From Hyphomicrobiales bacterium (GTDB lineage Bacteria > Pseudomonadota > Alphaproteobacteria > Rhizobiales > Beijerinckiaceae), in NCBI GenBank assembly GCA_947455645.1, contig CANGPA010000013.1, forward strand, positions 1 through 33,460: a DNA stretch of 33,460 nucleotides, read 5' to 3'. Positions 9,960 to 27,825 of the stretch are shown piece after piece; position 1 is the stretch's first letter, and each line of letters opens with the position of its first letter. The notes under the pieces were generated by a model, which saw only the letters and a program-made list of their open reading frames with translations, did no database searches and had not been told where the DNA came from. A program made the translations under genes and the position numbers.

Positions 9960-9963
9960 GGGG

Positions 9964-13866: not shown

Positions 13867-13886
13867 ATTTCGTGCTCATCCGAAAT
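13867..13886. promoter_or_regulatory. Operator-like inverted repeat before the LVIVD gene
   Basis: ATTTCG (13867-13872) and CGAAAT (13881-13886) are exact inverted half-sites, 8 bases apart, in the short gap after the importer terminator. This suggests the LVIVD gene has its own promoter. No regulator is recognised. Confidence 0.25.
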
Positions 13887-13926
13887 TCCTCCGTATGTTT
13901 TAATGTTTGATGCAATGGAGTTCTTC

Positions 13927-15192
13927 ATGTCCTCGCAAAACTTACCGAAGCCCGATTCAGCCAAGAACATGACTTTGATCGGTCACTCCGATCAGGGTGG
14001 TCGGCCTGATGGCGTTCAATTGATGGTGAACAAAGGTCATGCCTTTGTGGGACATATGTTCTCTAAAGGGTTTTCGGTGATCGATTGCACCAATCCACGT
14101 GATCCAAAGCCTGTGACCTATGTCGCGGCACCGCCGAATACGTGGAACATTCATCTGCAAACCTATGGTGATCTTCTGCTCGTGATCCATGCGAAGGATA
14201 TGTTCGCAGCGGCGGAATTTCAGGACGAGAAGGCCTATTACAAAGGCGCGCTGGGCGAGAAAGTGGGAACCGCGCAAGCGGCAGCCGCGCCAAAGGCGCG
14301 TGATTGGTCGGCGGGGCTTGCGGTCTATGACATTAAAAATCCGAAAGAGCCCAAGCAAATCGGTTTTATGCCGGTTGAAGGCGGTGGTGTGCATCGCATT
14401 TGGTATACGGGCGGACGGTGGGCGTATGTCTCTGTGCTGCTTGATGGCTTTACCGATTATATTTTCATGACGGTTGATCTGGCCGATCCGACAAAGCCCG
14501 TTGCAGGCGGAAAACTTTGGCTTCAAGGCATGAACACGGCGGCAGGCGAAAAAATTTCATGGCCTGCGAATAAGCGCTTTGGTTTGCATCACGCCACTGT
14601 GAGTGGTGACACCGCCTATGGTGCGTGGCGCGATGCGGGGCTTGTGATGATTGATGTGAAAGACCGCGCCAATCCATCCTTGATTTTGCATAAGAACTGG
14701 TCACCCCCGTTTAATGGCGGCACACATAATTGCGTGCATTTGCCCGATCGCAATTTATTGATTGTCGTCGATGAAGCGGTGCTCGATGATTATGAGGACG
14801 GGTTCAAGCCGATCTGGTTGTTTGATGTGCGCGAGCCAACCAATCCGGTTTCGATCTCCACGTTCCCGACGCCGCAAGAGGCTGATTATCGTCACAAAGG
14901 CGGCCATTATGGCCCGCATAATATTCACGAAAATCGGCCTGATGCCTTTGTGTCATCGACAACAATTTTCGCGACGATGCAAAATGCCGGTATCCGTGTC
15001 TATGACATCAAAAACGAATATCGCCCTGAGGAAACAGCGTGGTTTGTGCCGCCGACTCCGCCCAAACTGATCGACCGCCGCCCCAATCGGCCTTTGGTGA
15101 TTCAAAGCTGCGATGTTTATGTCGACAAGGAAGGTCTGATCTACTCGAATGACTATAATGGTGGTCTTTATATCCTTGACTATAAGGGTTAA
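13927..15192 (+). CDS. LVIVD-repeat beta-propeller protein
   Basis: This 421-residue protein is built from repeated beta-strand units of the type G-h-x-h-h-D-h-x-x-P-x-x-P, for example SVIDCTNPRDPKP, AVYDIKNPKEPKQ, MTVDLADPTKPV, VMIDVKDRANPS and LFDVREPTNPV. This is the LVIVD pattern, which folds as a beta-propeller. Histidine-rich loops stand out: GLHHATVSG, GGTHNCVHLPDRN, and GGHYGPHNIHENRP, which could bind a metal. No signal peptide is present at the chosen ATG 13927 (GGAG seven bases upstream); upstream in-frame ATGs exist but lack family-like sequence. It follows the importer operon, so a role in handling the imported substrate is a reasonable guess, but LVIVD proteins have no established enzymatic function known to me. 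Confidence 0.85.
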   Translation: MSSQNLPKPDSAKNMTLIGHSDQGGRPDGVQLMVNKGHAFVGHMFSKGFSVIDCTNPRDPKPVTYVAAPPNTWNIHLQTYGDLLLVIHAKDMFAAAEFQDEKAYYKGALGEKVGTAQAAAAPKARDWSAGLAVYDIKNPKEPKQIGFMPVEGGGVHRIWYTGGRWAYVSVLLDGFTDYIFMTVDLADPTKPVAGGKLWLQGMNTAAGEKISWPANKRFGLHHATVSGDTAYGAWRDAGLVMIDVKDRANPSLILHKNWSPPFNGGTHNCVHLPDRNLLIVVDEAVLDDYEDGFKPIWLFDVREPTNPVSISTFPTPQEADYRHKGGHYGPHNIHENRPDAFVSSTTIFATMQNAGIRVYDIKNEYRPEETAWFVPPTPPKLIDRRPNRPLVIQSCDVYVDKEGLIYSNDYNGGLYILDYKG

Positions 15193-15225
15193 GGACTTTC
15201 TACGGCCTTTGTTGTGCCTGAAATC

Positions 15226-15257
15226 AATCGGAACGTGATCCTCATGTTCCGATTTTT
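15226..15257 (+). terminator. Rho-independent terminator of the LVIVD gene
   Basis: AATCGGAAC (15226-15234) pairs perfectly with GTTCCGATT (15246-15254), a 9-bp stem with an 11-base loop; the stem's own T residues run into a stretch of five T. Confidence 0.9.
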
Positions 15258-15315
15258 CATATGGGATAATGCCCCTTCGTTTTGAGGGGCGTTATGAGTT
15301 TGACTTTTTGGAGTG

Positions 15316-16467
15316 ATGATTTTGCCCATTCAACTTTATGCGCTGGCGCTTGGCACTTTTGCAGTCGGCACGACCGAATTCGTGATGATGGGCCTCTTGC
15401 CGTCGGTGGCAGCCGATTTGTCTATCTCCATTCCGATGACCGGTCTCTTGGTGACCGGCTATGCTTTGGGTGTCGTGGTTGGCGCGCCGATCATGACTTT
15501 GGGCACCACGCGCATTGATCGCAAAACTTTGCTGATCAGCCTGATGGCGTTGTTTGTATTGGGTAATGGGCTTGCTGCGCTTGCGCCCACTTACACATTT
15601 TTAATGCTCGGCCGTATCATTTCATCTCTGATGCATGGTGCGTTTTTTGGAGTCGGATCGGTTGTGGGCGCGGGCCTTGTGCCCAAAGAAAAACAGGCGC
15701 GTGCCATTGCGTTGATGTTTTCAGGCCTTGCGATCTCCAATATTATCGGTGTGCCTTTGGGCACCTATATCGGACAGATGTTTGGCTGGCGTGTGAGCTT
15801 CGGGCTGATCAGCGCGCTGGGTCTTTTGACGGCGTTGTTTCTCGCCAGCGCATTGAAGCCGCAAGCCGCCGATCCGTTGAGTGGTTTCAAGCAGGAACTC
15901 GCCGTCCTGAAACGGGCGCGTGTCTGGCTGGCGCTGGCGACAACCACATTCGGCTTTGGCGGCGTGTTTGTGGTGTGGACGTATATCGCGCCGATCCTTG
16001 AAACGGCGACGGGCCTGTCTCCTGCGGCGATTACGATTGTTTTGTTTATTTACGGTATTGGACTGACGCTCGGCAATGCCGTTGTAGCGCGCTGGGTTGA
16101 TCGCTCGCTCACACGCGCGCTAATCGGCATTCTCATCGCGCTTGCGGCGATCATGGCAGCGTTCAGCGTGACGATGGGATCGCCCCTTCTCGCAACGATC
16201 ACGATTTTCTTGTTGGGCTTTGCGGCTTTCGGCACCATTCCGCCATTGCAAATGGCCATTATGGCGGCGGCCGAGGGTGCGCCTAATCTGGCCTCTGCAC
16301 TCAACATCGCTGCGTTTAATTTGGGTAATGCTGGTGGCGCCTATCTTGGCGGGCGCATCATCGGCGCCGAACTCGCTTATCCCGCTTTGGCTCTTGTGGG
16401 GGCAGGCGTGAGTCTGATCGGCTTGGCCTTTGCGGTATTTGCCCGACGGGGTGTTGCGCGGGGGTGA
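15316..16467 (+). CDS. Major facilitator superfamily exporter (DHA1, AraJ/YdhP-like)
   Basis: The protein has 383 residues and about 12 transmembrane segments. The N-terminus ALALGTFAVGTTEFVMMGLLPSVAADL is the hallmark of the AraJ/YdhP/purine- and sugar-efflux branch of the drug:H+ antiporter-1 family. Motif-A-like GAPIMTLGTTRIDRKTLL follows the second segment, and LGTYIGQMFGWRVSFGLISALG is the motif C region. It exports small molecules by proton antiport; the substrate cannot be assigned. Start choice is open: ATG 15316 is given, but GGAG at 15310-15313 is ideally spaced for TTG 15322, which would give the family-typical N-terminus MPIQLYALALG. Well-marked terminators upstream make it an independent unit. 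Confidence 0.88.
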   Translation: MILPIQLYALALGTFAVGTTEFVMMGLLPSVAADLSISIPMTGLLVTGYALGVVVGAPIMTLGTTRIDRKTLLISLMALFVLGNGLAALAPTYTFLMLGRIISSLMHGAFFGVGSVVGAGLVPKEKQARAIALMFSGLAISNIIGVPLGTYIGQMFGWRVSFGLISALGLLTALFLASALKPQAADPLSGFKQELAVLKRARVWLALATTTFGFGGVFVVWTYIAPILETATGLSPAAITIVLFIYGIGLTLGNAVVARWVDRSLTRALIGILIALAAIMAAFSVTMGSPLLATITIFLLGFAAFGTIPPLQMAIMAAAEGAPNLASALNIAAFNLGNAGGAYLGGRIIGAELAYPALALVGAGVSLIGLAFAVFARRGVARG

Positions 16468-16512
16468 ACCGCGCCGCCTTTAACAAGTCTTTTTTGATAA
16501 GCGCGCGCTGTT

Positions 16513-16544
16513 AACAGAGAAACAGAGAAACAGAGAAACAGAGA
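16513..16544. repeat. Four perfect copies of an 8-bp tandem repeat
   Basis: AACAGAGA is repeated exactly four times head to tail (16513-16544) between the MFS exporter and the NADH dehydrogenase gene, 85 bases before the latter's start. Replication slippage could change copy number and so the spacing of upstream promoter elements. Confidence 0.95.
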
Positions 16545-16628
16545 ACGCATACCGAATTGAAATCGCGATTGGACATCTCACGCATGATTGTCCGTTATGG
16601 CGGCAAGATAAAACAGGGACGTTCGGCC

Positions 16629-17936
16629 ATGAAAACTCAAATTGTCGTTGTTGGCGGGGGTGCCGGCGGACTGGAACTGGTTCGCCGTTTGGGCGCAAAA
16701 TTTGGTCGCCACGGCTATGACATTATTCTGGTTGAGCGAAACCGCACCCATATCTGGAAGCCGTTGCTGCACGAAGTCGCCGCCGGGTCACTCGACGCCA
16801 ATCTGGATGAATTGGGATATCGCAGCCACGGCCACCGGTGGGGCTATCGTTTCTTTTATGGCAGTTTGGAGACGATTGACCGGGCTAATCGGCAGGTGGT
16901 GATTGCTCCCATTTTTGACGAAGACGGGCGGGAAGTCATCGCCCAACACCGGATCCGCTATGATTACCTCGTCTTGGCCTTCGGTGCGGTGTCAAATGAT
17001 TTTGGCATACAAGGTGTAAAAGACCATTGTCTGTTCTTGGAAGATCGCGCGCAAGCCGACCGGTTTCGGACGAAATTGCTCAATCAGTGCTTGAGAGTTT
17101 CGCGGACCTTGAGTGTCGATCCAAGCGCCGATGCAACCGTCAACATCGCCATTGTCGGCGGCGGCGCGACCGGCGTTGAATTGGCCGCCGAACTCTATAA
17201 TTCCGCTGGGGCTCTTCGTCATTACGGCCTTGAAGTGTTTGACGAGAGTCGCTTGAAGGTTACGCTCATTGAAGCGGGTCCTCGGATATTGCCTGCACTT
17301 CCCGAAAAGCTCGCAGCGTCGGCAAGGGCGGAACTCGAAGCGTTAGGCGTTGACGTGAGAACCAACACGCAAGTCAGCCGCGCCGAAGCAAGTGCTTTGG
17401 TGACGAATACGGGTGAGCATATTCAAGCGGATCTTATGTTATGGGCCGCCGGCGTTCGCGGGGCGAAAATACCGGGCGGGCTCGACGGTTTGGAGGTAAC
17501 ACCCACGAACCAGATCAAAGTGCGCGAGACGCTGCAAACCACCGTTGATGATCATATTTTTGCGATTGGCGATTGCTGCAGCTGCATCATTGCTGAAACC
17601 GGTAAGCCGGTCCCGCCGCGCGCCCAATCGGCAGCACAAATGTCGAAGACCGCTTTTCACAACATTGTGAGCCTCATCGCAAAGAAACCCTTGGAGGGCT
17701 TCGTCTATCGTGATCGTGGGTCACTCATTTCGCTCAGCCGGTTTTCAACGGTGGGCAGTCTTATGGGCAATCTCGTCGGCGGCCGCATGGCTATTGAAGG
17801 TTATATTGCGCGCCTCGCCTATATTTCGCTCTACCGGATGCATCTGATTGGCATCCATGGCTGGATCAAAGGCTTAATCCTGATCCTCATCGGTCACGTC
17901 AATCAAGTTGTGCGGCCCAAACTCAAACTGCACTGA
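16629..17936 (+). CDS. ndh: Type II NADH:quinone oxidoreductase-like flavoprotein
   Basis: This 435-residue FAD protein has the dinucleotide-binding motif VVVGGGAGGLELVRRL at the extreme N-terminus (FAD) and a second one, IAIVGGGATGVELAAEL, near residue 176 (NADH). It has a GxWAAGVRG-type segment and the FAD-binding FAIGDCCSC with PPRAQSAAQM after it. The C-terminus is hydrophobic/amphipathic (GHVNQVVRPK region), fitting peripheral attachment to the inner membrane. Type II enzymes pass electrons from NADH to quinone without pumping protons. ATG 16629 is used because the FAD motif starts four residues later; upstream in-frame starts (16557, 16584) would add sequence not seen in the family. Length matches the family (about 430). 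Sulfide:quinone reductase is less likely, as the redox cysteine pattern is absent. Confidence 0.88.
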   Translation: MKTQIVVVGGGAGGLELVRRLGAKFGRHGYDIILVERNRTHIWKPLLHEVAAGSLDANLDELGYRSHGHRWGYRFFYGSLETIDRANRQVVIAPIFDEDGREVIAQHRIRYDYLVLAFGAVSNDFGIQGVKDHCLFLEDRAQADRFRTKLLNQCLRVSRTLSVDPSADATVNIAIVGGGATGVELAAELYNSAGALRHYGLEVFDESRLKVTLIEAGPRILPALPEKLAASARAELEALGVDVRTNTQVSRAEASALVTNTGEHIQADLMLWAAGVRGAKIPGGLDGLEVTPTNQIKVRETLQTTVDDHIFAIGDCCSCIIAETGKPVPPRAQSAAQMSKTAFHNIVSLIAKKPLEGFVYRDRGSLISLSRFSTVGSLMGNLVGGRMAIEGYIARLAYISLYRMHLIGIHGWIKGLILILIGHVNQVVRPKLKLH

Positions 17937-18021
17937 TTTTGCTCTGCGTCAGTCGGCTCCGTCTGTGCCGCCGTCCTCAAAAGCAAGCAAGTGAGCGCAG
18001 AAACTATTCACAGTTTGTAGG

Positions 18022-18034
18022 GAAATGGCGCACC
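18022..18034. repeat. Left att-like direct repeat (copy of the tRNA-Arg 3' end)
   Basis: GAAATGGCGCACC here is identical to 23068-23080, where it spans the encoded CCA end and acceptor stem of tRNA-Arg. The two copies enclose the YHYH/HupE gene group. Similarity fades immediately afterwards, as expected for a short integration core. Confidence 0.6.
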
Positions 18035-18082
18035 GAAAGACATAAAGTCGATTTTTTCTGATCCATGTCTTCAAGTGCAGTT

Positions 18083-20407
18083 CTAATTTCCATAAGTAAA
18101 TTTATTCAAGATCTGACCGGTGCAAGATGAGCTGGCTGAATTAAAACAAGGAACGCTATTCACCAAGCCGATATAAGCGCCCTTCATCAAGATATGAAGC
18201 GTATAAGATATATTGCTCGACGTTGTACCCGTCATCGTATGGGCATGATAATGATAGCCGATACTGCTATGATTATGGCCACCAAAACTATCCAAAGTAT
18301 TATAACCAAGCATTGTGGAATAATCACTTAAATAGGCGCCGAACAAAGCGACGCCATCATAACCAAAGCCAATCAAAGGCGGATGGGTTTTTCCTGAATA
18401 ATCTGTGGCGTTGTAAATACCGAACGGCCAGGAGGATCGATAGGAATCCGCGTGACAATGGGGGCCGCCGCCACCTTGACCAACATGACAGCCATAGGGT
18501 GAAAGCTCAGAATAGGCTTGAGAAAAGCCTAATTGATTATTGTAGGCCGGGAAAGTGACTGCACCATTGACCAAGATTCCATTATCAGCCTTTGAGGCGT
18601 AGTTATAAACATCCTTGGATTGCGTGTTGGTAACGTCACTCCACAACGTGCCAATTGTATCCATGATGCTATTTTCGGTTACAGCCGAGGAGACCGTACC
18701 GTAATCTTTCATAGGAATGCGCAGCACTTTGTAGTCCAAATTGCTCAGTCGCGTACGGCACCAACCCGTACAACCGGACGCGCCGGGCGGGCTTGCAATA
18801 TCGATCAATCCATTGGGCGATGATTGGTTTTCATAGGTTACGATTACCATGAACGGATGATATACATTCGAACTGTCCCGCTCATTCGTGAACCAGACAT
18901 AAGGCACCATATTCTGTCCGGGCGTGCCATCGGTGATCGAGGCTGAAACCAAAGTATTCGCCAGAAGCGCTTTTCTGAAAGCCGCGTAAACACTGGTATC
19001 ATAGCGCAATTTGACGCCGGCCGATTTGATGGCCGCCAATTGCGTATTAGCCGCGGTTTCGGTTGATGTGTTGGTGCCGGGCGAGGCAACTTGGGTTTTA
19101 TAATTCGTTCCAAAGCGCTTATAAACGTCACCCGACGTGCCCTCAACATAGGAGGGAGCCGAGGTCGCACTATAGGTAAAGGGTGCCGCGGGGTCTATGC
19201 TATAAGATGTCGATAAAGGGTTAAAATCAGTTGGCAAAGTTACTGTTAAAGGCGCGTTAAACAAGTAGATCGGCGTAGCGCTTGAAACGCTTTTCACCAA
19301 TTTATAAACGCCGTTAGAATAATTGACATAATAGTCTGCGGCAGCGAATGATGAATCAGGTGTGTGTTTTTCAACGCAAGTAGTCGAACACGTATAGGTG
19401 TAGGAATAACGCTTTTTCGCGGTCAGATATTTTGTCGTGTTATTATAAGAAAATACAATATAGCCATAAAGTGTCCCGGATGCGTGGCCGAAATTATCTC
19501 TAAATTTTAATATATAAGAATTCGATGAATCGGCATCAATCGTCATATTCGGATGAAGTTGTGAGTCCAGCCTGAAATATGAATTGCTGCTCGGCGCGGC
19601 TCCTGACACTGTTGTCGAAGACAATGATTTTGAGGTACTTGAAACCGTATATGTTCCCGTTCCGCCGGATCCCGTTCCAAACGCGGTGATTGTTGCACTT
19701 GTGAAGGCATTGTCGTTGCTGGTTGTGATAACCGAACCAACATAAAGTGTTCCCTCGGTCACGGACGTTACCGTCAATGTTGTCCCGCTTAAGGATGCAA
19801 TACCGATGAAGCGATCCGAAATGGCATTCATCATTGCAGAAAGATAATTATTGTAAGTTGCGCTTGTATTTAGCGAACCGGATGTGACGCTATATCCCGT
19901 CGTCGAACTGTAGCTCGATCCGATCGATAAGTAGGCGGCGCTGGTTGAGGCGCTCGATACAGTTGAGAGTAGATACCGGTTACGGCTTGTAAAGCCCGTG
20001 GCGGCTGTCAAACTCGATGTGTAATAGCTCTTGGCCAAAATGGATGTGAAATTGGCGGGTGTGGAAACCGTTGTTGGCGTAACACTGACCGATGTCGAAG
20101 AGCTGCTTGTTGTATATCCAGTCGCCGATGCCGTGACCGAACAGCTATAGCTGCTTCCGTTCACTAAAGAGGTAACCGTGATTGGGCTTGAAGAGCCAGT
20201 ATTGGACTTCGTGATCGAGCCGGTAATACATTTGGCGGTGTATGACGTCGCCGACGAAACCGTGCTGAAGGAAATTGTTGCTTGGGAATCGCCGGATTGG
20301 CCCGTCGTGATCGTGGGTGTTGATAAGGTTGAGGCGGCAAATGACGGTAAGATTGTCCCAATGAGAGTGCCCATAAAAAGGAACAACAACTTAAAACAGC
20401 GGCCCAT
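18083..20407 (-). CDS. Secreted YHYH-domain protein with fibronectin-III-like N-terminus
   Basis: The protein has 774 residues. It has a signal peptide at 1-25 (MGRCF start, hydrophobic core, FAAS cleavage). Residues about 27-114 resemble a fibronectin type III repeat, with the ATISFSTVSSATSYTAKC and VTSLVNGSSYSCSVTASATG pattern. Residues about 202-270 form a GTTLTVTSV ... GTGSGGTGTYTVS module like those in phage tail and surface proteins. The C-terminal quarter is a YHYH domain: YGCHVGQGGGGPHCH, GFGYDGVALFGAY, and GGHNHSSIGYHYHAHT. The many His residues suggest metal binding in the envelope or outside the cell. ATG 20407 is preferred to GTG 20440 because the signal peptide begins there. Composition is Ser/Thr/Tyr-rich and AT-richer than its surroundings. 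No enzymatic function is assigned to this family that I know of. Confidence 0.82.
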   Translation of the reverse strand: MGRCFKLLFLFMGTLIGTILPSFAASTLSTPTITTGQSGDSQATISFSTVSSATSYTAKCITGSITKSNTGSSSPITVTSLVNGSSYSCSVTASATGYTTSSSSTSVSVTPTTVSTPANFTSILAKSYYTSSLTAATGFTSRNRYLLSTVSSASTSAAYLSIGSSYSSTTGYSVTSGSLNTSATYNNYLSAMMNAISDRFIGIASLSGTTLTVTSVTEGTLYVGSVITTSNDNAFTSATITAFGTGSGGTGTYTVSSTSKSLSSTTVSGAAPSSNSYFRLDSQLHPNMTIDADSSNSYILKFRDNFGHASGTLYGYIVFSYNNTTKYLTAKKRYSYTYTCSTTCVEKHTPDSSFAAADYYVNYSNGVYKLVKSVSSATPIYLFNAPLTVTLPTDFNPLSTSYSIDPAAPFTYSATSAPSYVEGTSGDVYKRFGTNYKTQVASPGTNTSTETAANTQLAAIKSAGVKLRYDTSVYAAFRKALLANTLVSASITDGTPGQNMVPYVWFTNERDSSNVYHPFMVIVTYENQSSPNGLIDIASPPGASGCTGWCRTRLSNLDYKVLRIPMKDYGTVSSAVTENSIMDTIGTLWSDVTNTQSKDVYNYASKADNGILVNGAVTFPAYNNQLGFSQAYSELSPYGCHVGQGGGGPHCHADSYRSSWPFGIYNATDYSGKTHPPLIGFGYDGVALFGAYLSDYSTMLGYNTLDSFGGHNHSSIGYHYHAHTMTGTTSSNISYTLHILMKGAYIGLVNSVPCFNSASSSCTGQILNKFTYGN

Positions 20408-20756
20408 ATAATCACTCAACCCCACATTACCGTTACACACAGCGCGCCCGCGAGTGAACCAAACTTTTATTGCTAAAGCTTTGCCAACTGGCTTGGTTTT
20501 GTCAAATCACCTGTACTTTGACGAAACTTGATGTCAAAAATAAAAAAACGGCAAGATAAGAATCAATATCTGAGATGATGTCTATGCAAGCTTCGTGTTT
20601 TGCAGAATGTTATTATTGATCTGGGATTGGTGCCCCATTTATATGACGGGGCGATTATCCAATCTCCGTCAAATTGGGATAAAGTATTGTGAGGGCGTTG
20701 TGTCTAAACGGGTTCACTTTTTCGTCGCTTCCGCAAATTCAATTTTGACTTTAAAT
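20408..20756. promoter_or_regulatory. AT-rich divergent control region of the islet, with evenly spaced half-sites
   Basis: This is 349 bases between the YHYH gene and the three-gene operon, notably AT-rich (22 of 60 bases are G/C in 20461-20520). GTCAAA (20501-20506), TTTGAC (20517-20522) and GTCAAA (20533-20538) alternate in orientation with exactly ten bases between neighbours, that is a 16-base period. They overlap -35-like sequences: TTGACA twice on the minus strand, and TTGACG (20518) with TAAAAA 17 bases on, on the plus strand. A further GTCAAA is at 20668. No convincing gene is seen here. Confidence 0.5.
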
Positions 20757-21329
20757 ATGTGTGACATCGTTTGTGGATTTTGGAAATTTGCCTTTTCGGC
20801 TTTGTTCTGGGCGGCCCTCCAGCAAACCGCCGTCGCCCATGACGCCACGCTTCGTATCAATCGTACCAATGCTGAGGATCTTGAACTAACCTTTTCATTG
20901 GACCTGATTACGACGTTGCAAGGAGCACTTGCGCCGCGCATTAATCCCATCCTCTTTCTTGGTCGCTATGCCCATATGCCGACCGCCGAATTCAATGACG
21001 AACTTGCCAGAGCCAAATCCATTATTGAAAACGAAATCCGTATTGAAGGAGCGGGAGGAAATGCCTTTGTTGTTCGATCTTGGCAATGGCCCGCCTCCGA
21101 AGAGATCCAAGCGCGTCTCAAGAAAACGGCCGAAGCGAGTCTCAGCGATCCCTCTGCCATAGGCCAATTGGCTATCCTTGCGCTGACAATGTCGGCGCAT
21201 TCAAAAACTGAAATTTCGCGCATTCATCTCAGCATCGGGCCGAGATTAAGGCCTATCTTGCTGGTTCGTCCAAATATCGAGCAATTCTGGATCGATGATC
21301 TTTCGCCCGATGTGATACTCGATTTTTGA
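20757..21329 (+). CDS. Secreted protein of unknown family, first gene of the HupE operon
   Basis: This 190-residue protein has a signal peptide: a short N-region (MCDIVCGFWK), a hydrophobic core, and TAVA just before HD at residues 28-29. The mature protein begins HDATLRINRT and is predicted mixed alpha/beta with two helical stretches (residues about 75-93 and 110-140). It ends FWIDDLSPDVILDF. I do not recognise the family. The same start-of-mature-protein pattern (AHD...hxhxRhxxxxLxhxh) occurs in the extracytoplasmic domain of the HupE-like protein encoded two genes on, so it may be a distant partner of that domain. ATG 20757 is chosen for the signal peptide; it lacks a good ribosome-binding site, and GTG 20699 with GAGGG upstream is an alternative. 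The next gene starts 12 bases after the stop. Confidence 0.65.
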   Translation: MCDIVCGFWKFAFSALFWAALQQTAVAHDATLRINRTNAEDLELTFSLDLITTLQGALAPRINPILFLGRYAHMPTAEFNDELARAKSIIENEIRIEGAGGNAFVVRSWQWPASEEIQARLKKTAEASLSDPSAIGQLAILALTMSAHSKTEISRIHLSIGPRLRPILLVRPNIEQFWIDDLSPDVILDF

Positions 21330-21341
21330 ACAAGGGGTGTT

Positions 21342-21800
21342 ATGTCCAAGTCGAACTCATCGCAAAAGCGTATCAAGCATTTTTGGCAGCGGGTTCTTTC
21401 GGAACCGATACTGCATTTTGTCGTGCTTGGTGGCATCGTCTTCGGCCTAGATAGCTATTTTTCCTATCAACGCGGTGATCAATTCACGGTCAAAGTTGAT
21501 CAGACGCAGCAAGACTTGCTTGGTGCGCTTTATAAAGTCGGACGCGGACATGATCCGGAGCCGCAAGAGTTGAACGAGTTGATTGCACGGTGGGTCGACG
21601 GCGAGATTTTATACCGCGAGGGTCTTGCTTTGGGGCTCGATCGGGGTGACCCGGGTATCCGGGAGAGGGTGATTTCAAACATCATCGGAATGATCAAATC
21701 GTCTTCTACAGAAAACGGGGACGACCCCGCTGTTATTCATAGTTGGTTAGATCATCGTCGTTCGGCCTATCATATCCTGATCGAGAGCCGTAAGCCATGA
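21342..21800 (+). CDS. Membrane-anchored SurA-N-like protein lacking the PPIase domain
   Basis: This 152-residue protein has a basic N-terminus and one hydrophobic segment (about 22-40, EPILHFVVLGGIVFGLDSYF). It continues with a helical region, ELIARWVDGEILYREGLALGLDRGDPGIRERV (about 77-110), which matches the chaperone-like N-terminal part of periplasmic peptidyl-prolyl isomerases of the PpiC/SurA type. The relatives I know continue for another 120-150 residues into a parvulin domain; here the protein stops after an SAYHILIESRKP tail. The stop codon overlaps the next start as ATGA (21797-21800), so the shortened end looks settled rather than freshly broken. A chaperone-like assembly factor for the neighbouring envelope proteins is plausible but inferred. 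Confidence 0.7.
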   Translation: MSKSNSSQKRIKHFWQRVLSEPILHFVVLGGIVFGLDSYFSYQRGDQFTVKVDQTQQDLLGALYKVGRGHDPEPQELNELIARWVDGEILYREGLALGLDRGDPGIRERVISNIIGMIKSSSTENGDDPAVIHSWLDHRRSAYHILIESRKP

Positions 21801-22768
21801 TCCGATCACTCAAGGATAGAATTGTTCTATTCATATTGACTTTCTTGGCAGCGATTGTGTTGCATGGCGGCGCGGTTTTGGCTCATGATATCGGTATCGT
21901 TGATCTAACGGTTCATGAATTGCGCGATGGTATTTTTACTTGGCGTTGGGATCGACCAACCAAGCCGCAACGGCCGGAACAGAGTCTGATGCTGCAATGG
22001 CCTGACGGGTGCCATGAAGAAAATACTTTGTTGAAATGTTCGCAAGGGCTTTCAGGCCAATTGAAGATCAAAGGTCTCGGCGACGATTATAGCGTCGTTA
22101 TTTTGCGAGTTTTTTGGCGTCAAGGCGAGCAAACCGTTCACAATCTGACTCGCATTGAACCGGACGTCATTCTCTTTGACGGACCGCATGATGCGCGCGA
22201 CATGACAACCGTCGGCCTGACCTATTTTCAACTTGGTATCGAACATATTCTGACAGGGCTTGATCATTTAAGCTTTGTCATTTCACTTTTATTACTCGTG
22301 GGATATCGGCGCCGTCTGATCTGGACCATTTCTGCATTCACCTTAGCTCATAGCCTGACTTTTATATCGAGTTCTTTGGGATGGTTGGTCCTTCGGTCTC
22401 CGCCTGTTGAAATCACGATTGCACTTTCCATTATGCTCGTCGCTTCCGAAGCCTTGAAGAAAAAAAAGACATTGACCAGCGAATGGCCGGCGCCCGTTGC
22501 CTTCGCCTTTGGTCTCATTCATGGGCTCGGTTTTGCAGGAGTTCTTAAAGAAATTGGCCTTCCGGAGGTTCATCTTTCAACCGCCTTGGTGACCTTTAAC
22601 CTTGGCGTTGAAGCGGGCCAGCTTTTAATACTGGCATCATCATGGATGATCGGCATGATGTTAGGCCCTGTGACGAAGCGCATCGCGCTTCGCCGTCCAT
22701 TTCTCTATTTCATCGGCGCTTTGGCAAGTTATTGGGCCTTCATGCGCCTGTTGCTTTTGGCGAACTAG
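21797..22768 (+). CDS. HupE/UreJ-family membrane protein
   Basis: The protein has 323 residues. A signal peptide/first hydrophobic segment ends with GGAVLA followed by HD at 30-31. Residues about 30-145 form an extracytoplasmic beta-rich domain (DLTVHELRDGIFTWRWDRP and onward). From about residue 150 there are six or seven transmembrane segments with the HupE/UreJ_2 motifs: GIEHILTGLDHLSF, FTLAHSLTF, EITIALSIM, FGLIHGLGFAG and FNLGVEAGQL. The His/Asp/Glu residues inside these segments are the likely metal path; HupE and UreJ relatives are linked to nickel or cobalt uptake, but this long type with an N-terminal domain has no settled substrate. It overlaps the upstream gene by four bases. No hydrogenase or urease gene is nearby. 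Confidence 0.85.
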   Translation: MIRSLKDRIVLFILTFLAAIVLHGGAVLAHDIGIVDLTVHELRDGIFTWRWDRPTKPQRPEQSLMLQWPDGCHEENTLLKCSQGLSGQLKIKGLGDDYSVVILRVFWRQGEQTVHNLTRIEPDVILFDGPHDARDMTTVGLTYFQLGIEHILTGLDHLSFVISLLLLVGYRRRLIWTISAFTLAHSLTFISSSLGWLVLRSPPVEITIALSIMLVASEALKKKKTLTSEWPAPVAFAFGLIHGLGFAGVLKEIGLPEVHLSTALVTFNLGVEAGQLLILASSWMIGMMLGPVTKRIALRRPFLYFIGALASYWAFMRLLLLAN

Positions 22769-23067
22769 ATTCAATTCTTCTTTTGGTGCCGCTAACATTG
22801 GCTCTTATGGAAATTTTTCTGTTCGGCAAAACAATCAAGGGCAACCGCCACGATCATGCCCCATGACAATACGGACCCTTTCCGGTCTGACGCCTGACGC
22901 ATTCGAAAATGGTGATATTCAGGCCCAGAAGGCCTATCTCTTTGCAATCATCTTAGTGATTGAGTTTGACCACCAAACAGTCCGGATAATTCGTGAAAAA
23001 TTCAGGCTTGCCGCACGGCTATTGCGGGCAAGCAACACCCATAAGGAAATCTTCCAGGTTTTGCGAA
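22769..23067. other. Gene-free stretch between the HupE-like gene and tRNA-Arg
   Basis: About 300 bases with no convincing coding region. Apart from the tRNA terminator hairpin at 22996-23033 I see no promoter, repeat or pseudogene. An open frame that runs from here through the tRNA is a chance frame. Confidence 0.6.
22996..23033 (-). terminator. Terminator downstream of tRNA-Arg
   Basis: GCTTGCCGCA (23006-23015) pairs with TGCGGGCAAGC (23023-23033) with one bulged base. On the minus strand CTGAATTTTT follows, about 40 bases beyond the tRNA 3' end. Confidence 0.7.
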
Positions 23068-23080
23068 GAAATGGCGCACC
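23068..23080. repeat. Right att-like direct repeat at the tRNA-Arg 3' end
   Basis: GAAATGGCGCACC, identical to 18022-18034. It covers the encoded CCA (23072-23074), the discriminator base and the outer acceptor stem of the tRNA, the usual integration position for tRNA-targeting elements. The islet lies on the 3' side of the tRNA, as expected. Confidence 0.6.
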
Positions 23081-23148
23081 CGACACGATTCGAACGTGTG
23101 ACCTCTGCCTTCGGAGGGCAGCACTCTATCCAGCTGAGCTACGGGTGC
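23072..23148 (-). tRNA. tRNA-Arg (anticodon CCG)
   Basis: On the minus strand the cloverleaf reads with acceptor stem GCACCCG/CGGGTGC, a D-arm containing TAGCTCAGCTGGATAGAG, and an anticodon arm CTGCC-CTCCGAA-GGCAG giving anticodon CCG (reads CGG, arginine). The T-arm contains GTTCGAATC, and the CCA end is encoded. It is followed by a terminator hairpin and lies 100 bases downstream of the ActR/RegA-like gene on the same strand. Its 3' end carries the direct repeat that bounds the islet. Confidence 0.95.
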
Positions 23149-23247
23149 CAAAGCCTGTGCCTCTTCTAGCTGATTGCCGGACACTCGGCAATTGCGTGGG
23201 CGTTAAAGCGAACAACGCATCCGCATTTATCGGGCCGGGGAGGCGGG

Positions 23248-23802
23248 TCAGCGCGGCGCGCGCTTGGCCAGAATGCGCTGGAGTGTGCGGCGATGCATGG
23301 AAAGCCGGCGGGCGGTTTCCGAGACATTGCGGCCGCATTGCTCATAAACGCGCTGGATATGCTCCCAGCGGACCCGATCCGGTGACATCGGATTTTCGGG
23401 CGGTGCGATGGTCAGCGGGCCATCGGCATGGAGCGCCCGGTCGATCTCGTCGGCATCGGCCGGTTTGGCGAGATAGTCGGTGGCGCCGAGTTTCACAGCC
23501 GCCACGGCGGTTGCCAGATTGGCATAGCCTGTGACGATGATGCCGCGGGCATCCGGACGCTTTTTGGATAAAGCAGCCAGAACATCGAGGCCACTGCCAT
23601 CGCCGAGCTTGAGGTCAATGACGGCATAGGCCGGCGGACGGGATTCAATGGCCGCGATACCGGCTTTGGCGGTTTCAGCAGCCTCAACGCGGTAGCCGCG
23701 CTGTTCCATCTCGCGGGTAAACCGGGTGACGAAGGTTTTTTCCCCGTCAACAATCAGAAGAGACCGGTCAGCAAGCTTGCTCGCACTGGAAACATCATTC
23801 AT
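23248..23802 (-). CDS. actR: ActR/RegA/PrrA-family response regulator
   Basis: The protein has 184 residues. An N-terminal receiver domain carries phospho-acceptor D63 (VIDLKLGDGSGLD), T91 (IIVTGYA) and K113 (LAKPADADE). A Pro-containing linker leads to a short Fis-type helix-turn-helix, RVRWEHIQRVYEQCGRNVSE and TARRLSMHRRTLQRILAKRAPR, which is the near-invariant ActR/RegA signature. The family is the response half of a redox-responsive two-component system controlling respiration, carbon and nitrogen metabolism. The sensor kinase (ActS/RegB), often adjacent, is not in this window; the divergent neighbour is an ABC transporter. Oddity: the acidic pocket reads VDGEK (19-22), with Gly20 where a Mg-binding Asp is expected. 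Confidence 0.93.
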   Translation of the reverse strand: MNDVSSASKLADRSLLIVDGEKTFVTRFTREMEQRGYRVEAAETAKAGIAAIESRPPAYAVIDLKLGDGSGLDVLAALSKKRPDARGIIVTGYANLATAVAAVKLGATDYLAKPADADEIDRALHADGPLTIAPPENPMSPDRVRWEHIQRVYEQCGRNVSETARRLSMHRRTLQRILAKRAPR

Positions 23803-23973
23803 CGCTTCCGCCCTTCATCTGATGGGAGTTATGCAGACTTACGCGGCGGCGGACGGTTCGGTTCACTCGGCGCGCGACAATTCCGCACGTTCCGGGCCAA
23901 AGGGGTGGGACGGCGCGGGCCGTTCTCGTCTATAACTCCGCTTCGAACCCGCCCTTTGACGAGAGTTGCCCTT

Positions 23974-24747
23974 TTGACCGCCTTACCCCTCATCGAGTCC
24001 GAACATCCCGCCATTGAGGTCGATGCCCTCGAAAAGCGCTATCGCGGCGTGCCAGCGGTGCGCGGGATCAGTTTCCGGTTAGCGCCGGGCGAGGTTTTGG
24101 GACTTCTGGGCGGCAATGGCGCGGGAAAAACCACCACGATCGGCATGATCATGGGGCTTGTTCTGCCAAGCAGCGGCCGGGTGCGGGTGTTCGGCACGGA
24201 TATGGCCAAGGACCGCTATGCCGTGCTCCACCGGATGAATTTCGAAAGCCCCTATGTGGATATGCCGCATCGGCTTACCGTCCGGCAAAATCTGGAAGTT
24301 TTCGGGATGCTCTATGGCGTTCCGCACATCAAGGACCGGATTGCCGAACTTGCGCGTGACCTGCATCTTGAGGCGTTTCTCGATCGCGAGGCGGGGCAAT
24401 TATCCGCCGGACAAAAGACGCGCGTGGCGCTGGCCAAAGCGCTCGTCAATCATCCCGATCTTTTATTGCTTGATGAACCCACGGCATCGCTTGATCCGGA
24501 TACGGCGGATTGGGTGCGCACGCGTCTTGAAACCTATCGACGCGATCAAAACGCATCCATTCTTTTGGCCTCGCATAATATGGCCGAAGTCGAGCGGCTG
24601 TGTGATCGCGTGATCATTATGAAAGCCGGTGCGATTGCCGATGAAGGAAGCCCATCAGCGCTCATTGAAAAATATGGACGCCATTCGCTTGAGGAAGTGT
24701 TCCTTGATGTGGTGCGCGCGCCGACACAAACGGAGCATGCCGCATGA
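23974..24747 (+). CDS. ABC-2 type transporter ATP-binding protein
   Basis: This 257-residue ATPase has Walker A GGNGAGKTTT, Q-loop region MNFESPYVDMPHRLTVRQNL, signature QLSAGQKTRVALAKAL, Walker B LLLLDEPTASLDP and the H-loop ASHNM. The short form with one nucleotide-binding domain plus an ABC-2 permease encoded next door is typical of exporters of the NodI/DrrA type. The start is uncertain: TTG 23974 gives an N-terminus (TALPLIESEHPAIEV) close to the domain start with GAGAG upstream, whereas GTG 23905 would add 23 mostly basic residues. It overlaps the permease start as ATGA (24744-24747), so the two are translationally coupled. Confidence 0.9.
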   Translation: MTALPLIESEHPAIEVDALEKRYRGVPAVRGISFRLAPGEVLGLLGGNGAGKTTTIGMIMGLVLPSSGRVRVFGTDMAKDRYAVLHRMNFESPYVDMPHRLTVRQNLEVFGMLYGVPHIKDRIAELARDLHLEAFLDREAGQLSAGQKTRVALAKALVNHPDLLLLDEPTASLDPDTADWVRTRLETYRRDQNASILLASHNMAEVERLCDRVIIMKAGAIADEGSPSALIEKYGRHSLEEVFLDVVRAPTQTEHAA

Positions 24748-25568
24748 GCGCGATTATTCATTCTGATCGCGGCGGTTTTTCGATACGGCGCGTGGGCGCG
24801 CTTGTGTTGCGCTATACCTATCTTTTGCGCTCGTCTTGGCCGCGTCTTTTGGAACTCGTCTATTGGCCCACGGTGCAAATGCTGACTTGGGGTTTCATCC
24901 AGCTTTATGTCGCCAACACATCAGGACGCGCGGCGTTTGCCGCGGGCACGCTGATCGGCGCGATGCTGTTATGGGATGTGTTGTTTCGCAGCCAGCTTGG
25001 TTTTTCGGTTTCGTTTCTTGAAGAAATTTGGGCGCGCAATATCGGCAATCTGTTGATGAGCCCGATGCGGCCTTCGGAATTTATTGTCGCGCTGATCGTG
25101 ATGAGTGTTGTGCGTCTGGCGATCGGGCTCGGCCCTGTGGCGTTGATGGCGACATGGTTTTTCGGATTTAATTATTTCGCCTTGGGCATGGGCGCGCTTT
25201 TGTTTTTTGCCAATCTGGTTTTGACGGGCTGGGCGGTGGGTCTCGTCGTTTCCGGCTTGGTGATGCGGCATGGGCTGGGCGCAGAAAGTCTCGCCTGGAC
25301 GGTGATGTTTGTGCTTCTGCCGCTGACCTCGGTTTATTACCCCGTAACGGTGCTGCCGGCCTGGCTTCAGCCGGTTTCCTGGTGTTTGCCGCCTACTTAC
25401 GTATTTGAGGGATTGCGCGCTTTGCTCATCGACCATCAGCTGCGGCTTGACCTGATGGCCGAGGCGTTTTTGCTCAATATCGGCTATTTTGCCGCGGCGA
25501 TCTTCGCTTTCCGCGTGCTTTTGGAGCAAGCCCGCGAAGGCGGCTCCTTGATGCAGATGGGCGAGTGA
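24744..25568 (+). CDS. ABC-2 type transporter permease
   Basis: This 274-residue membrane protein has about six hydrophobic segments and the ABC-2 layout: an amphipathic N-terminal helix (RRVGALVLRYTYLLRSSWPRLLELVYWP), a cytoplasmic loop (NIGNLLMSPMRPSEFIVA) and a C-terminal LLPLTSVYYPVTVLPAWLQPVSWCLPPTYVFEGLR block, which is the conserved ABC-2 signature region. It forms an exporter with the ATPase whose gene overlaps it by four bases. The pair resembles NodJ/DrrB-type systems for lipids, polysaccharides or drugs; the cargo is unknown. Confidence 0.9.
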   Translation: MSAIIHSDRGGFSIRRVGALVLRYTYLLRSSWPRLLELVYWPTVQMLTWGFIQLYVANTSGRAAFAAGTLIGAMLLWDVLFRSQLGFSVSFLEEIWARNIGNLLMSPMRPSEFIVALIVMSVVRLAIGLGPVALMATWFFGFNYFALGMGALLFFANLVLTGWAVGLVVSGLVMRHGLGAESLAWTVMFVLLPLTSVYYPVTVLPAWLQPVSWCLPPTYVFEGLRALLIDHQLRLDLMAEAFLLNIGYFAAAIFAFRVLLEQAREGGSLMQMGE

Positions 25569-25622
25569 GCGGATCGATCACAGAATTTTAAGCCCCTCTA
25601 TGGCACTATGACCTTAGAAGCA

Positions 25623-25673
25623 TTGCACAACCCGCACGAAGAGGACTAGATTGCTCCTTGTGCAGTGCAACAA
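25623..25673 (+). promoter_or_regulatory. phaZ promoter region with PhaR-like sites
   Basis: TTGCAC (25623-25628), an 18-base spacer and TAGATT (25647-25652) could be the promoter. Around it TGCACAA (25624-25630) and TTGTGCA (25658-25664) are inverted, and the latter continues into a near-palindrome TTGTGCA-G-TGCAACAA (25658-25673). TTGC/GCAA-type repeats of this kind are what the granule-associated repressor PhaR binds in alphaproteobacteria, which fits the following gene. Confidence 0.4.
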
Positions 25674-25710
25674 ATAGCCCGGCTCAAGCCGGTCAGGGAC
25701 AGTCAAGCCG

Positions 25711-26991
25711 ATGCAGCTTCCGCTTTATATGTGGTACGAGGCGACCCATGCCATGTTGGCCCCCGCGCGTGCGCTTGCGGGTTCGACCAAGCTTTTTTAC
25801 AAAAACCCGGTCAATCCGCTGACCCATTCGCCCTTCGGCCGCAGCGTGGCCGCCGCGTGCGAAATGTTTGAGCGCACCACGCGCCGCTACGGCAAGCCGG
25901 AATTCGGCTATGGCGCGATCCGCGTGAACGGCATTGAAGCCGAGATTGTTGAAGATGTTGTTTGGTCGCAACCTTTCTGCAACCTGATCCATTTCCGCAA
26001 GAAGACGGTCGGTCGGCAATTCAATCAGCCCAAAATTCTGATGGTTGCACCGATGTCGGGCCATTACGCGACGTTGTTGCGCGGTACGGTTGAAACCTTT
26101 CTGCCAACCCATGACGTGTATATTACCGACTGGGTTGATGCGCGCACGGTGCCGATGAGCGCGGGTCGGTTCGATCTCGACAATTACATTGACTATGTGA
26201 TCGAGATGATCCGGCTCTTAGGCCCTGACGTGCATTTGATGGCCGTCTGCCAACCCGCCGTACCCGTGATTGCCGCGATTGCGCGCATGGAAGCGGAAGA
26301 TGATCCGGCTGTGCCTTATTCGATGACCTTAATGGGCGGCCCGATTGATACGCGCGAAAGCCCGACGCAAGTGAATTTATTGGCGCAAAATCGCGGGACC
26401 GATTGGTTCAAGCGGCATTGCATTGTCAAAGTGCCGCTGCCGAATGCGGGCTTCATGCGCGATGTGTATCCGGGCTTTTTGCAGCTCTCCGGATTCATGG
26501 CGATGAATATTGATCGCCATATCGAAGCGCATGGCGAGATGTTCTCGCATCTTGTGCATGGCGATGGTGACTCGGCCGAAAAACATCGCGATTTTTATGA
26601 TGAATATATGGCGGTGATGGATTTGACCGCCGAGTTTTATCTTCAAACGGTTGATACGGTGTTTGTGCAGCATGCGCTGCCCAAAGGCGAGATGATGCAT
26701 CGCGACAAGCCTGTGAATTTGAGTGCCATCAAACGTTGCGCCTTGATGACGGTTGAAGGCGAGAAGGATGATATTTCGGGCGTTGGCCAAACACAGGCCG
26801 CGCATCGCCTGTGCGTCAACATTCCCGAGGAGCGCCGCGTGCATTGGGTGCAGCCGAAAGTGGGCCATTATGGCGTGTTCAATGGTTCGCGCTTCCGTGC
26901 AGAAGTGGCACCCCGCATCGCCGATTTCATGGCCAATAGCGCGCATGATGCCAAAAAATCTTCTGGCAAATCCTTGAAGCTGGTTATCTGA
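25711..26991 (+). CDS. phaZ: Intracellular polyhydroxyalkanoate (PHB) depolymerase
   Basis: This 426-residue enzyme breaks down stored polyhydroxybutyrate on the granule surface. It is of the type without a signal peptide and without a lipase box: the nucleophile is cysteine, C180 in LMAVCQPAVP, with the acidic residue in VEGEKDDISG and the histidine in KVGHYGVFNGSRF. The N-terminal MWYEATHAMLAPARALAGSTKLFYKNPVNP is strongly diagnostic. Length matches the family (about 410-430). ATG 25711 is used, with AGGGAC about 11 bases upstream. No other PHA genes are in the window; the upstream repeats suggest control by PhaR. Confidence 0.95.
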   Translation: MQLPLYMWYEATHAMLAPARALAGSTKLFYKNPVNPLTHSPFGRSVAAACEMFERTTRRYGKPEFGYGAIRVNGIEAEIVEDVVWSQPFCNLIHFRKKTVGRQFNQPKILMVAPMSGHYATLLRGTVETFLPTHDVYITDWVDARTVPMSAGRFDLDNYIDYVIEMIRLLGPDVHLMAVCQPAVPVIAAIARMEAEDDPAVPYSMTLMGGPIDTRESPTQVNLLAQNRGTDWFKRHCIVKVPLPNAGFMRDVYPGFLQLSGFMAMNIDRHIEAHGEMFSHLVHGDGDSAEKHRDFYDEYMAVMDLTAEFYLQTVDTVFVQHALPKGEMMHRDKPVNLSAIKRCALMTVEGEKDDISGVGQTQAAHRLCVNIPEERRVHWVQPKVGHYGVFNGSRFRAEVAPRIADFMANSAHDAKKSSGKSLKLVI

Positions 26992-27033
26992 CCGTTCCGG
27001 TTTGGTGGTCGCTTCTCGTTGAGAGCGAGCGTA

Positions 27034-27055
27034 GCGCGCGCGTGACAGCGCGCGC
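27034..27055 (+). terminator. GC-only hairpin after phaZ
   Basis: GCGCGCGC (27034-27041) and GCGCGCGC (27048-27055) form a perfect 8-bp stem with loop GTGACA. There is no T-run, so termination would need Rho or the element may be a stability or leader structure for the metallopeptidase gene 24 bases on. Confidence 0.35.
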
Positions 27056-27078
27056 ACTTCGTGGGACTCATAGGGCCC

Positions 27079-27825
27079 ATGATTCCCTTTCTCACCCGTC
27101 CCCGCCGCGCAACGCCGCCGAGCCATATCGATGTCACGCATGAGGGCGCGGCCTATCGTGTTGTGGTCAAGCGCGCCGCCAAAGCAAAGCGACTGACGCT
27201 GCGCGTGAGTGCCGCCACACGGGCGGTGACGCTGACCATGCCGCTCAGAGGTGATTTCAAACTCGTAGCGGATTTTGCTCAGCGTCATGGGGCATGGATT
27301 GCCGAACGCATCGCGCGTCTTGACGGTGAAATTCTGATCGCGCCGGGTGTCGAGATTCCGTTTCGCGGTGAATCGCATCGCATCATCCATCGCGCAGATC
27401 GACGCGGCACCGTTTGGATCGAAGAAGCGGAGGACGGCGCCTCTGTGATCGTGGTGGCAGGGCATGGTGATCATGCCGCCCGTCGTGTGAAGGATTTTCT
27501 CAAGAAAGAAGCACGCCGCGCGCTTGATCAAGCGGTGGAACGCTACACCACGGCGCTCGGTATTCCGGCGCGACGCATCGCACTCAAAGACACGCGCAGC
27601 CGTTGGGGATCCTGCTCGACGGATGGACGGCTGAATTTTTCATGGCGTTTGATTCTCGCGCCCCCTGATGTTCTTGATTATCTTGCCGCGCATGAAGTGG
27701 CGCATTTGAAAGAACACAATCATTCTTCGCGGTTCTGGACCGTGGTGTCGACGCTTTATCCCGAGTATCGCAAGGCCGAGGCGTGGCTCAAACGTCATGG
27801 CATGACGCTGCATCGCTATCGTTGA
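27079..27825 (+). CDS. YgjP/M48-like metallopeptidase domain protein (DUF45)
   Basis: This 248-residue protein has a central TRSRWGSCSTDGRLNFSWRLILAPPDVLDYLAAHEVAHLKEHNHSSRFW block: SRWGSCS, then the zinc motif HEVAH with the third ligand in NHSSRFW, the YgjP-type gluzincin arrangement. The N-terminal half is beta-rich and basic (VVKRAAKAKRLTLRVS). The biological role of this family is poorly defined; some members are found next to restriction or nucleotide-metabolism genes, but here the neighbours are phaZ and an MFS exporter. ATG 27079 is preferred to GTG 27061, because the hairpin at 27034-27055 sits just before the GTG. The MFS gene begins 17 bases after the stop. Confidence 0.85.
   Translation: MIPFLTRPRRATPPSHIDVTHEGAAYRVVVKRAAKAKRLTLRVSAATRAVTLTMPLRGDFKLVADFAQRHGAWIAERIARLDGEILIAPGVEIPFRGESHRIIHRADRRGTVWIEEAEDGASVIVVAGHGDHAARRVKDFLKKEARRALDQAVERYTTALGIPARRIALKDTRSRWGSCSTDGRLNFSWRLILAPPDVLDYLAAHEVAHLKEHNHSSRFWTVVSTLYPEYRKAEAWLKRHGMTLHRYR

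Follow-up and report, generated by a model that had tools for sequence, protein, structure and literature searches.

The investigated window, a stretch of 33,460 nucleotides from a bacterium of the order Hyphomicrobiales, contains at positions 18022-23080 an islet of four genes bounded by two copies of a 13-bp direct repeat, the right of which coincides with the CCA end of a gene encoding tRNA-Arg(CCG). The islet and its surroundings comprise the following features:

9846-18021, no strand: flank left of the islet, listed as context only and itself rearranged
17977-23072, no strand: segment of low GC content (47%), located without using the repeats
18022-18034, plus strand: distal (left) copy of the 13-bp direct repeat, an exact repeat and candidate distal attachment site
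18083-20440, minus strand: protein of 785 amino acids with a YHYH motif, with a signal peptide judged by eye and deviant codon usage
20595-21329, plus strand: stand-alone metal-binding domain resembling 'anglerase' (Ang-1), with a likely start at 20757 (AlphaFold model, PDB 9GCE)
21342-21800, plus strand: homologue of the peptidyl-prolyl isomerase (PPIase) that usually adjoins HupE, without rotamase domain and with a membrane anchor judged by eye
21797-22768, plus strand: HupE/UreJ-2 permease with an N-terminal extension (PF13795)
22857-23098, plus strand: decayed C-terminus (about 80 amino acids) of a large serine recombinase (LSR), frameshifted near 23015 and extending into the tRNA
23068-23080, plus strand: proximal copy of the repeat, identical with both the tRNA's CCA end and the K-W-R-T codons of the recombinase remnant, candidate tRNA-side attachment site
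23072-23148, minus strand: tRNA-Arg(CCG), whole

The islet differs from its neighborhood in base composition. Its GC content is 47.3%, compared to 54.3% at 12000-18021 and 56.8% at 23149-29149, and the hand counts by which a first-pass annotation had described it as AT-richer than the flanks (21 of 60 G/C at 19201-19260 and 22 of 60 at 20461-20520) are correct. A segmentation by GC content that was blind to the repeats placed the best single segment within 12000-28000 at 17977-23072, and the lowest GC content among all windows of 5033 bp is found in the one starting at 17977. The distinction extends to codon usage, where the genes of the islet score 0.008-0.051 on the host scale and the other called genes 0.092-0.255, a comparison that leaves out a spurious reading frame over the recombinase remnant (score -0.103) and in which the four islet genes show the lowest values among real genes. 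Both properties, whose calculation the annotation had proposed, support a foreign origin of the islet.

The direct repeat is exact, and its right copy consists of the last nine nucleotides of the tRNA and four nucleotides downstream. The same nine plus four nucleotides are found displaced at 18022, at a distance of 48 bp from the stop codon of the YHYH-motif protein (instead of the 49 bases counted initially) and 45 bp inside the GC change-point at 17977, and the proposed orientation, suited for integration at the 3' end of a tRNA gene, is supported. In the entire 2.30-Mb draft genome, the 13-mer occurs twice on the plus strand and never on the minus strand, and the reversed control is not found at all; a frequent occurrence elsewhere in the genome, which had been named as an argument against an insertion, is thus not observed. 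By themselves, pairs of 13-mers mean little: the window contains 35 maximal direct repeats of at least 13 bp and 42 pairs of 13-mers more than 500 bp apart, besides an 11-bp partial copy of the tRNA-Arg end inside a gene at 1373. For a pair linking the 26 bp of the tRNA 3' end with a 201-bp stretch around the GC change-point, the expected number is 0.0002, in a box that was picked after the pair was known.

The genes between the repeats probably constitute a metal-uptake module for copper or nickel, as judged from their sequences and a structural model. The YHYH-motif protein is 66% identical to a homologue in G010, one of the relatives within the genus. Neither its whole sequence nor its C-terminus alone matches the Pfam family YHYH (PF14240), to which a neighboring protein of 613 amino acids in G010 matches with an E-value of 7.5e-43; a domain or protein of the name YHYH is mentioned in published papers. 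A structural model of the protein was useless (pLDDT 29), no relative was found in phages, and a scan of contigs with two peptide patterns returned at least two loci, one of them in G010. The following gene is predicted to encode the Ig-like fold of the copper-bound structure 9GCE. An AlphaFold model of the region 20757-21326 (pLDDT 77) matches 9GCE with a Foldseek E-value of 4.4e-6 and TM-scores of 0.49/0.54, and superimposes with a Z-score of 10.5 and 3.4 Å over 141 residues at 9% identity, closely followed by the zinc-binding protein ZrgA (Z 9.1) and PA4063 (Z 8.5). In all three aligned homologues, the presumed signal peptide is followed by the sequence Ala-His-Asp, which suggests that the mature protein would start with a histidine serving as putative copper or nickel ligand. 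The PPIase homologue has no rotamase match in Pfam, whereas the full-length homologue L114 carries a Rotamase_2 domain and the version in G010 is 143 amino acids long. The assignment of the permease is secured by a PF13795 score of 147.7 bits compared to a Pfam gathering cut-off of 24.5. Sequence searches of the PDB with HupE and gene 2 returned nothing, and 493 plasmid records contain HupE proteins that are all less than 60% identical, so that no recent plasmid source is seen.

Between the HupE gene and the tRNA, we found the end of a recombinase gene. When searched against 20401-23200, 19 of 26 LSR queries match with an E-value of 0.01 or better, and 14 of these 19 with a piece located outside of the tRNA; one query aligns to 22860-23069, outside the tRNA, with an E-value of 2e-7 in the window. 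The best combined E-value of 2e-14 takes in a second piece that extends 27 nucleotides into the tRNA. Excluding the tRNA, the actual sequence scores 44.3 bits, compared to at most 24.6 bits in 1000 shuffled sequences. The complete recombinase L166 contains Resolvase, Recombinase and Zn-ribbon domains. Since neither of the first two is found intact in the islet, we have classified it as a remnant and not as a functional member of the LSR elements. A full LSR gene occupies 1.6 kb, a space which is here taken by the HupE and PPIase genes, and the element is therefore not simply frozen. These results revise the initial statement that no integrase is present. The description of everything between the repeats as one gene group is incomplete, since the remnant occupies 22857-23098, and with an LSR C-terminus located between HupE and tRNA, a cassette mobilized in trans is not needed.

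Related LSR genes are found at tRNA ends in relatives. Among 30 loci returned, three are interrupted by contig ends, and in 25 of the 27 testable ones a whole tRNA (Arg, Glu or Leu) is located at the 3' end of the LSR gene. The 3' ends of the other two, L176 and L202, lie in tRNA-like fragments, with L176 sharing 36 nucleotides with the tRNA-Arg(CCG) end of the window. In all 21 cases where an LSR reading frame was seen to overlap a tRNA, the two are convergent. We also searched for distal copies of the tRNA end in 20 stretches, ten of them extended, 18 of which were used after exclusion of L211, which has no recognized tRNA, and the short L222. Exact copies of at least 11 bp occur in six of 18 loci compared to ten of 90 control tests (inverted 1 of 18, other zones 4, 2, 2 and 1 of 18 each), and copies of at least 12 bp in three of 18 loci compared to two of 90 controls, both in one control zone, which makes for a weak family-wide test. 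The six cases include the 12-bp copies of L206 and L220, and a closer look was taken at G259 and G147, whose copies both seem to lie within larger stretches that are mobile or genome-specific. The sequence beyond the 13-bp copy in G259 is encountered again in G330 and G265, at 8-19 kb from LSRs, and in the 7-kb flank of the 11-bp copy in G147 a good match to other genomes of its genus is limited to roughly the initial 212 bp, so that either copy may be internal; none of the six cases is taken as proof of a distal attachment site. Viral contigs contain only two distant relatives of the recombinase.

As a tentative proposal, which we regard as possible but doubtful, an LSR clade in this bacterial family might have become specialized for several tRNA genes (Arg, Glu and Leu), targeting their CCA end and thereby occupying a niche ascribed to tyrosine integrases. 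The attachment core would reside within the reading frame of the recombinase itself (mostly as ...F-[VI]-R-K-W-R), with the last 9-24 or so residues encoded antisense to the host tRNA. Since the tail would thus be partly tRNA-encoded, it would differ between the integrated and the circular form, offering a possible built-in switch of directionality. Serine integrases find wide use as tools to insert large DNA. Such a clade would supply natural attachment sites and would permit testing how serine and tyrosine integrases have reached the same targets.

The cargo is patchily distributed. HupE is present in three of the 12 genomes of the genus and absent from nine, and a situation where all close relatives carry the same genes at this place without a repeat, earlier named as speaking against an insertion, is not seen. 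In the two other carriers, G008 and G010, the module is located elsewhere in the genome next to type II secretion genes, and no LSR remnant is found near it in the stretches examined. The islet links a patchy metal-uptake module to the remnant of a mobile element, and the two relatives link it to type II secretion genes. A search for an empty site covered the 12 genomes, with ActR, ndh, the tRNA and the left 10.5 kb as queries. The region downstream of tRNA-Arg is readable for more than 200 bp in five of 11 relatives (G001, G005, G007, G010 and G011), none of which contains ndh at this place or matches the flanks of the window; the anticipated site with ndh directly beside the tRNA and a single repeat copy was accordingly not found among them. 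The contigs of G003, G004, G006 and G008 break off 48-157 bp past the tRNA, and G002 and G009 contain no good match to it. No tRNA-Arg is located near ndh in the examined stretches of eight relatives, and no close ndh is found in G006, G007 and G008. In G011, which lacks the islet at its tRNA-Arg, feoB neighbors the tRNA at 195 bp, compared to 3.2 kb in G001, so that both resemble a pair of empty and occupied sites, but the stretch in G001 is not bounded by any repeat of the tRNA end exceeding 8 bp. A likeness of the distal flank to the tRNA trailer of G011, noticed by eye, was dropped as too short.

We consider it fairly probable that 18022-23080 is the rest of an integrative element that has entered the 3' end of tRNA-Arg(CCG) by means of an LSR and is now fixed, a decayed element as one version of the first-pass annotation had it. 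Recombination by the LSR would have joined a short core at the CCA end to the site of the LSR itself; as this core duplicates the final bases of the tRNA, the latter would have remained whole, and the distal copy of the 13-mer would mark the opposite end of the element. The LSR gene would later have been lost for the most part and its last approximately 80 codons, which overlap the tRNA, frameshifted, so that the islet could no longer move itself. The cargo would have been kept by selection, probably as a module for the capture and uptake of copper or nickel that comprises a secreted YHYH-motif protein rich in His, a periplasmic domain for metal binding that resembles anglerase, a chaperone of PPIase-like type and the HupE/UreJ-2 permease.

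It is also conceivable, although we deem it unlikely, that the tRNA is a hot spot at which the LSR remnant persists as an old relic, and that the metal module was acquired in a separate, later event, such as homologous recombination or the entry of another element, which would make the distal 13-mer a chance occurrence or an older scar. The region downstream of the tRNA indeed varies among relatives, with feoB in G011, a 3-kb stretch preceding feoB in G001, an integrase-like gene in G005 (with Pfam scores below curated cut-offs) and LSR ends in G006 and G008, and no genome was seen with the cargo beside an LSR, including G008 and G010. Against such accretion stands the coincidence of the GC segment, the change in codon usage and the two repeats at both ends. 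The same gene in G005 could be invoked for the integrase-less cassette of the annotation, with a tyrosine integrase mobilizing it in trans at the tRNA end, which we find highly improbable in view of the serine recombinase remnant on board and the lack of any tyrosine recombinase or Phage_integrase match in Pfam among the four islet proteins.

The left neighbors leave room for a larger foreign unit, since ndh and the block 9964-16467 are rearranged as well: they reside on different contigs in G004, G005, G009 and G010, and feoB is found at the corresponding place in G001. An island of about 9.85-23.07 kb replacing feoB, with the islet as its tRNA-proximal part and the left 13-mer in its interior, would agree with the order in G001 (a 105-aa gene next to feoB, the 3-kb stretch and the tRNA) and in the window (a homologue of the 105-aa gene at 9522-9845, the block located elsewhere in other genomes, ndh and the islet). 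It would also agree with the relationship of ndh, which is 85-87% identical to G004, G005, G009 and G010 but 70-74% to G001, G002, G003 and G011, although G003 and G011 are nearest by ActR. We nevertheless regard this extension as improbable, as the block is host-like in GC content and codon usage and lacks the 13-mer on its left side.

With Islander-type tRNA islands, as portrayed in PMC4383910, the islet shares the whole tRNA, the short far copy of its 3' end, the lower GC content and the cargo genes, although its displaced copy (nine nucleotides of tRNA and four of flank) is short for such islands, which employ tyrosine integrases whereas the remnant belongs to the serine family. The same paper states that serine integrases are not known to use tRNA genes. 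PMC3218068 (2011) describes such use as rare and reports phiRSM1 of Ralstonia in the 3' end of tRNA-Ser and a group of eight Mycobacterium serine recombinases in tRNA-Leu, which combine serine recombinase and tRNA target as found here, in other hosts and other tRNAs. The main text of PMC10083194 does not contain the term 'tRNA', and at the level of titles and abstracts we found no description of LSR genes running into tRNA genes, so that an earlier one may exist. The cargo finds its closest counterpart in the anglerase-HupE/UreJ-2 proteins (PMC12537917; PDB 9GCE), described in a paper whose main text mentions neither 'YHYH' nor 'peptidyl'. These proteins share with the islet a permease with N-terminal extension and the fold predicted here for a separate domain protein. 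The islet adds this Ang-like protein as a second one that stands alone, together with the truncated PPIase and the YHYH-motif protein.

The 13-mer GAAATGGCGCACC is found at 18022-18034 and 23068-23080 and nowhere else in the 2.30 Mb draft genome (156 contigs), its right copy consisting of the final nine bases of a tRNA gene and four downstream bases. The window comprises contig C13 in its entire length.

23072-23148, minus strand, tRNA-Arg(CCG), identified by ARAGORN

The left copy is located on the 3' side of the tRNA, where an element integrating at a tRNA 3' end would place it. Coordinates and orientation of the direct repeat agree with the first-pass annotation, which had described an AT-rich, integrase-less islet at this gene. 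By itself, a 13-base repeat is cheap evidence; the window contains 35 maximal repeats of this class, and 11 bp of the same tRNA end recur at position 1373. Its weight comes from the coincidence with a segment of low GC content. A GC segmentation that did not use the repeats recovered 17977-23072 as best low-GC segment within 12000-28000, and the islet-length window of minimum GC, scanned over the entire contig, also starts at 17977. The expected number of 13-mer pairs joining the tRNA end to the 201 bp around the GC change-point is 0.0002, for a box that was picked after the pair had been seen. Host codon-usage scores, compared without a spurious ORF over the recombinase remnant described below, set the four islet genes (0.008-0.051) apart from the rest of the called genes in the window (0.092-0.255), among which the left neighbour ndh scores lowest.

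The proposed absence of an integrase did not hold. Some tRNA-Arg genes of relatives have, directly downstream of them, sequence that encodes the terminal part of a large serine recombinase (LSR). An intact LSR of the genus relative G008 (stretch L166, 3953-5623), which contains Resolvase, Recombinase and Zn-ribbon domains, matches the window at 22860-23069 with an E-value of 2e-7 in a search of the 33-kb window. When 26 family LSR ORFs were compared to 20401-23200, 19 matched at an E-value of 0.01 or better, 14 of them with a first-frame piece outside the tRNA (22851-23069), and from about 23015 the match carries on into the tRNA in a second frame. At 2e-14, the best combined E-value refers to a small search space and includes the tRNA-overlapping piece; the tRNA-free stretch scores 44.3 bits compared to a maximum of 24.6 bits in 1000 dinucleotide shuffles. 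The islet therefore contains the final ~80 codons of an LSR gene, with a frameshift and devoid of the catalytic domain; in this decayed frame, the 13-mer corresponds to a K-W-R-T stretch. The 1.6 kb that a full LSR gene would take up beside the tRNA is now occupied by the genes of a PPIase homologue and a HupE/UreJ-2 permease, which means that integration must have been followed by deletion or replacement. In appearance, the islet is a tRNA island that had a serine-family integrase; it is a remnant and not a functional member.

A search of 397 family genomes found some LSR match in 290, many of them distant. Of 30 loci examined among the best matches, three (L189, L190, L197) are located on contigs ending before the LSR 3' end. 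In 25 of the remaining 27, a whole tRNA is found at this end, with tRNAs for Arg (ACG, CCG, TCG), Glu (TTC, CTC) and Leu (GAG). In the other two, L176 and L202, the LSR ends in tRNA-like 3' fragments, the former sharing 36 consecutive bases with the tRNA-Arg(CCG) end of the window and the latter recognised by eye. Among the motif-filtered ORFs, 21 of 26 overlap with a tRNA, all convergently and by 30-76 nt, and the five without overlap are those of the named loci. Frames reaching the tRNA end mostly read ...F-[VI]-R-K-W-R. A test for distal copies of the tRNA end of at least 11 bp was weakly positive (6/18 LSR elements vs 10/90 control tests); two cases inspected closer, one of them the longest, both appear internal.

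Several of these loci show further features. At L176 (3040-3300, contig C55 of G040), the LSR end and a truncated tRNA-Arg(CCG) 3' half are followed by a recombinase-like ORF of another element, assigned by eye, perhaps reflecting tandem islands at one tRNA. At L166 (72-5623, G008 contig C48), two genes matching Phage_integrase and a third in the same direction precede the intact, tRNA-abutting LSR; this tyrosine-tyrosine-serine recombinase array looks unusual, and homologues of two of the three genes likewise precede the LSR at L212. A decayed LSR C-terminus in G004 (L071 11771-11910, contig C180) ends in a tRNA-end-like core, where no tRNA was detected, 2.5 kb from ndh, the gene that also neighbours the islet on its left. 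A further decayed end is located at a tRNA-Arg(ACG) in G010 (L169 10623-11114, contig C4). For the genome containing the window, two LSR-like matches were counted in the search of the family, one being that of the window.

The proposed empty site was not found with the flanks of the window among the 5 of 11 genus relatives that are readable downstream of tRNA-Arg(CCG). In G003, G004, G006 and G008, the contig stops 48-157 bp beyond this tRNA, as expected where repeated elements insert. In G011, feoB follows at 195 bp, and a 95% identical feoB is located 3.2 kb from the tRNA in G001. Since feoB is missing from the window, and the interval 9846-18021 comprises a block and ndh that are both found elsewhere in other genomes, the flank was rearranged too, and the foreign unit is possibly larger than the islet. 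The window ndh (16557-17936) is 85-87% identical to its counterparts in G004, G005, G009 and G010, compared to 70-74% for G001, G002, G003 and G011; the gene has different neighbours there and may have been transferred.

Within the cargo, the identity of the HupE/UreJ-2 permease is clear from its family match. The product of 20595-21329 matched no family and no PDB sequence; its model (pLDDT 77, built from a three-sequence alignment) best matches 9GCE, a structure of the Ang-1 domain from a HupE/UreJ-2 protein with copper bound (E 4.4e-6, Z 10.5), followed by the zinc-binding ZrgA and PA4063. In the Ang-1 study, binding of Cu and Ni by Ang-1 was measured and metal capture proposed for the permease (PMC12537917). 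The PPIase homologue adjoins HupE in 20 of 27 family loci, mostly with 270-330 residues and with a rotamase domain in the single one scanned (L114), and is shortened to 152 residues in the window and 143 in G010. The YHYH-motif protein, which does not match Pfam YHYH, is 66% identical to its G010 homologue and did not turn up in the G008 stretch; a Proteobacteria MAG encodes a distant relative close to HupE (L224). We infer that a secreted metal-binding protein would supply the metal permease. Among the 12 genus genomes, HupE of the islet kind is present in three, all of which belong to the four with a gspD-type secretin as in G010. In G010 and G008, the module adjoins gspD inside a type II secretion cluster:

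L079 2538-10342 and L080 8732-10885, module beside gspD in G010 and G008

In the genome of the window, gspD is located on another contig, whose end cuts it.

A description of these tRNA-abutting LSR genes was not found in the literature searched, the coverage of which is incomplete. The Islander paper describes serine integrases as not known to target tRNA genes (PMC4383910). In a 2011 survey, the use of tRNA genes by serine recombinases is called rare, the listed cases being phiRSM1 and Mycobacterium elements (PMC3218068).
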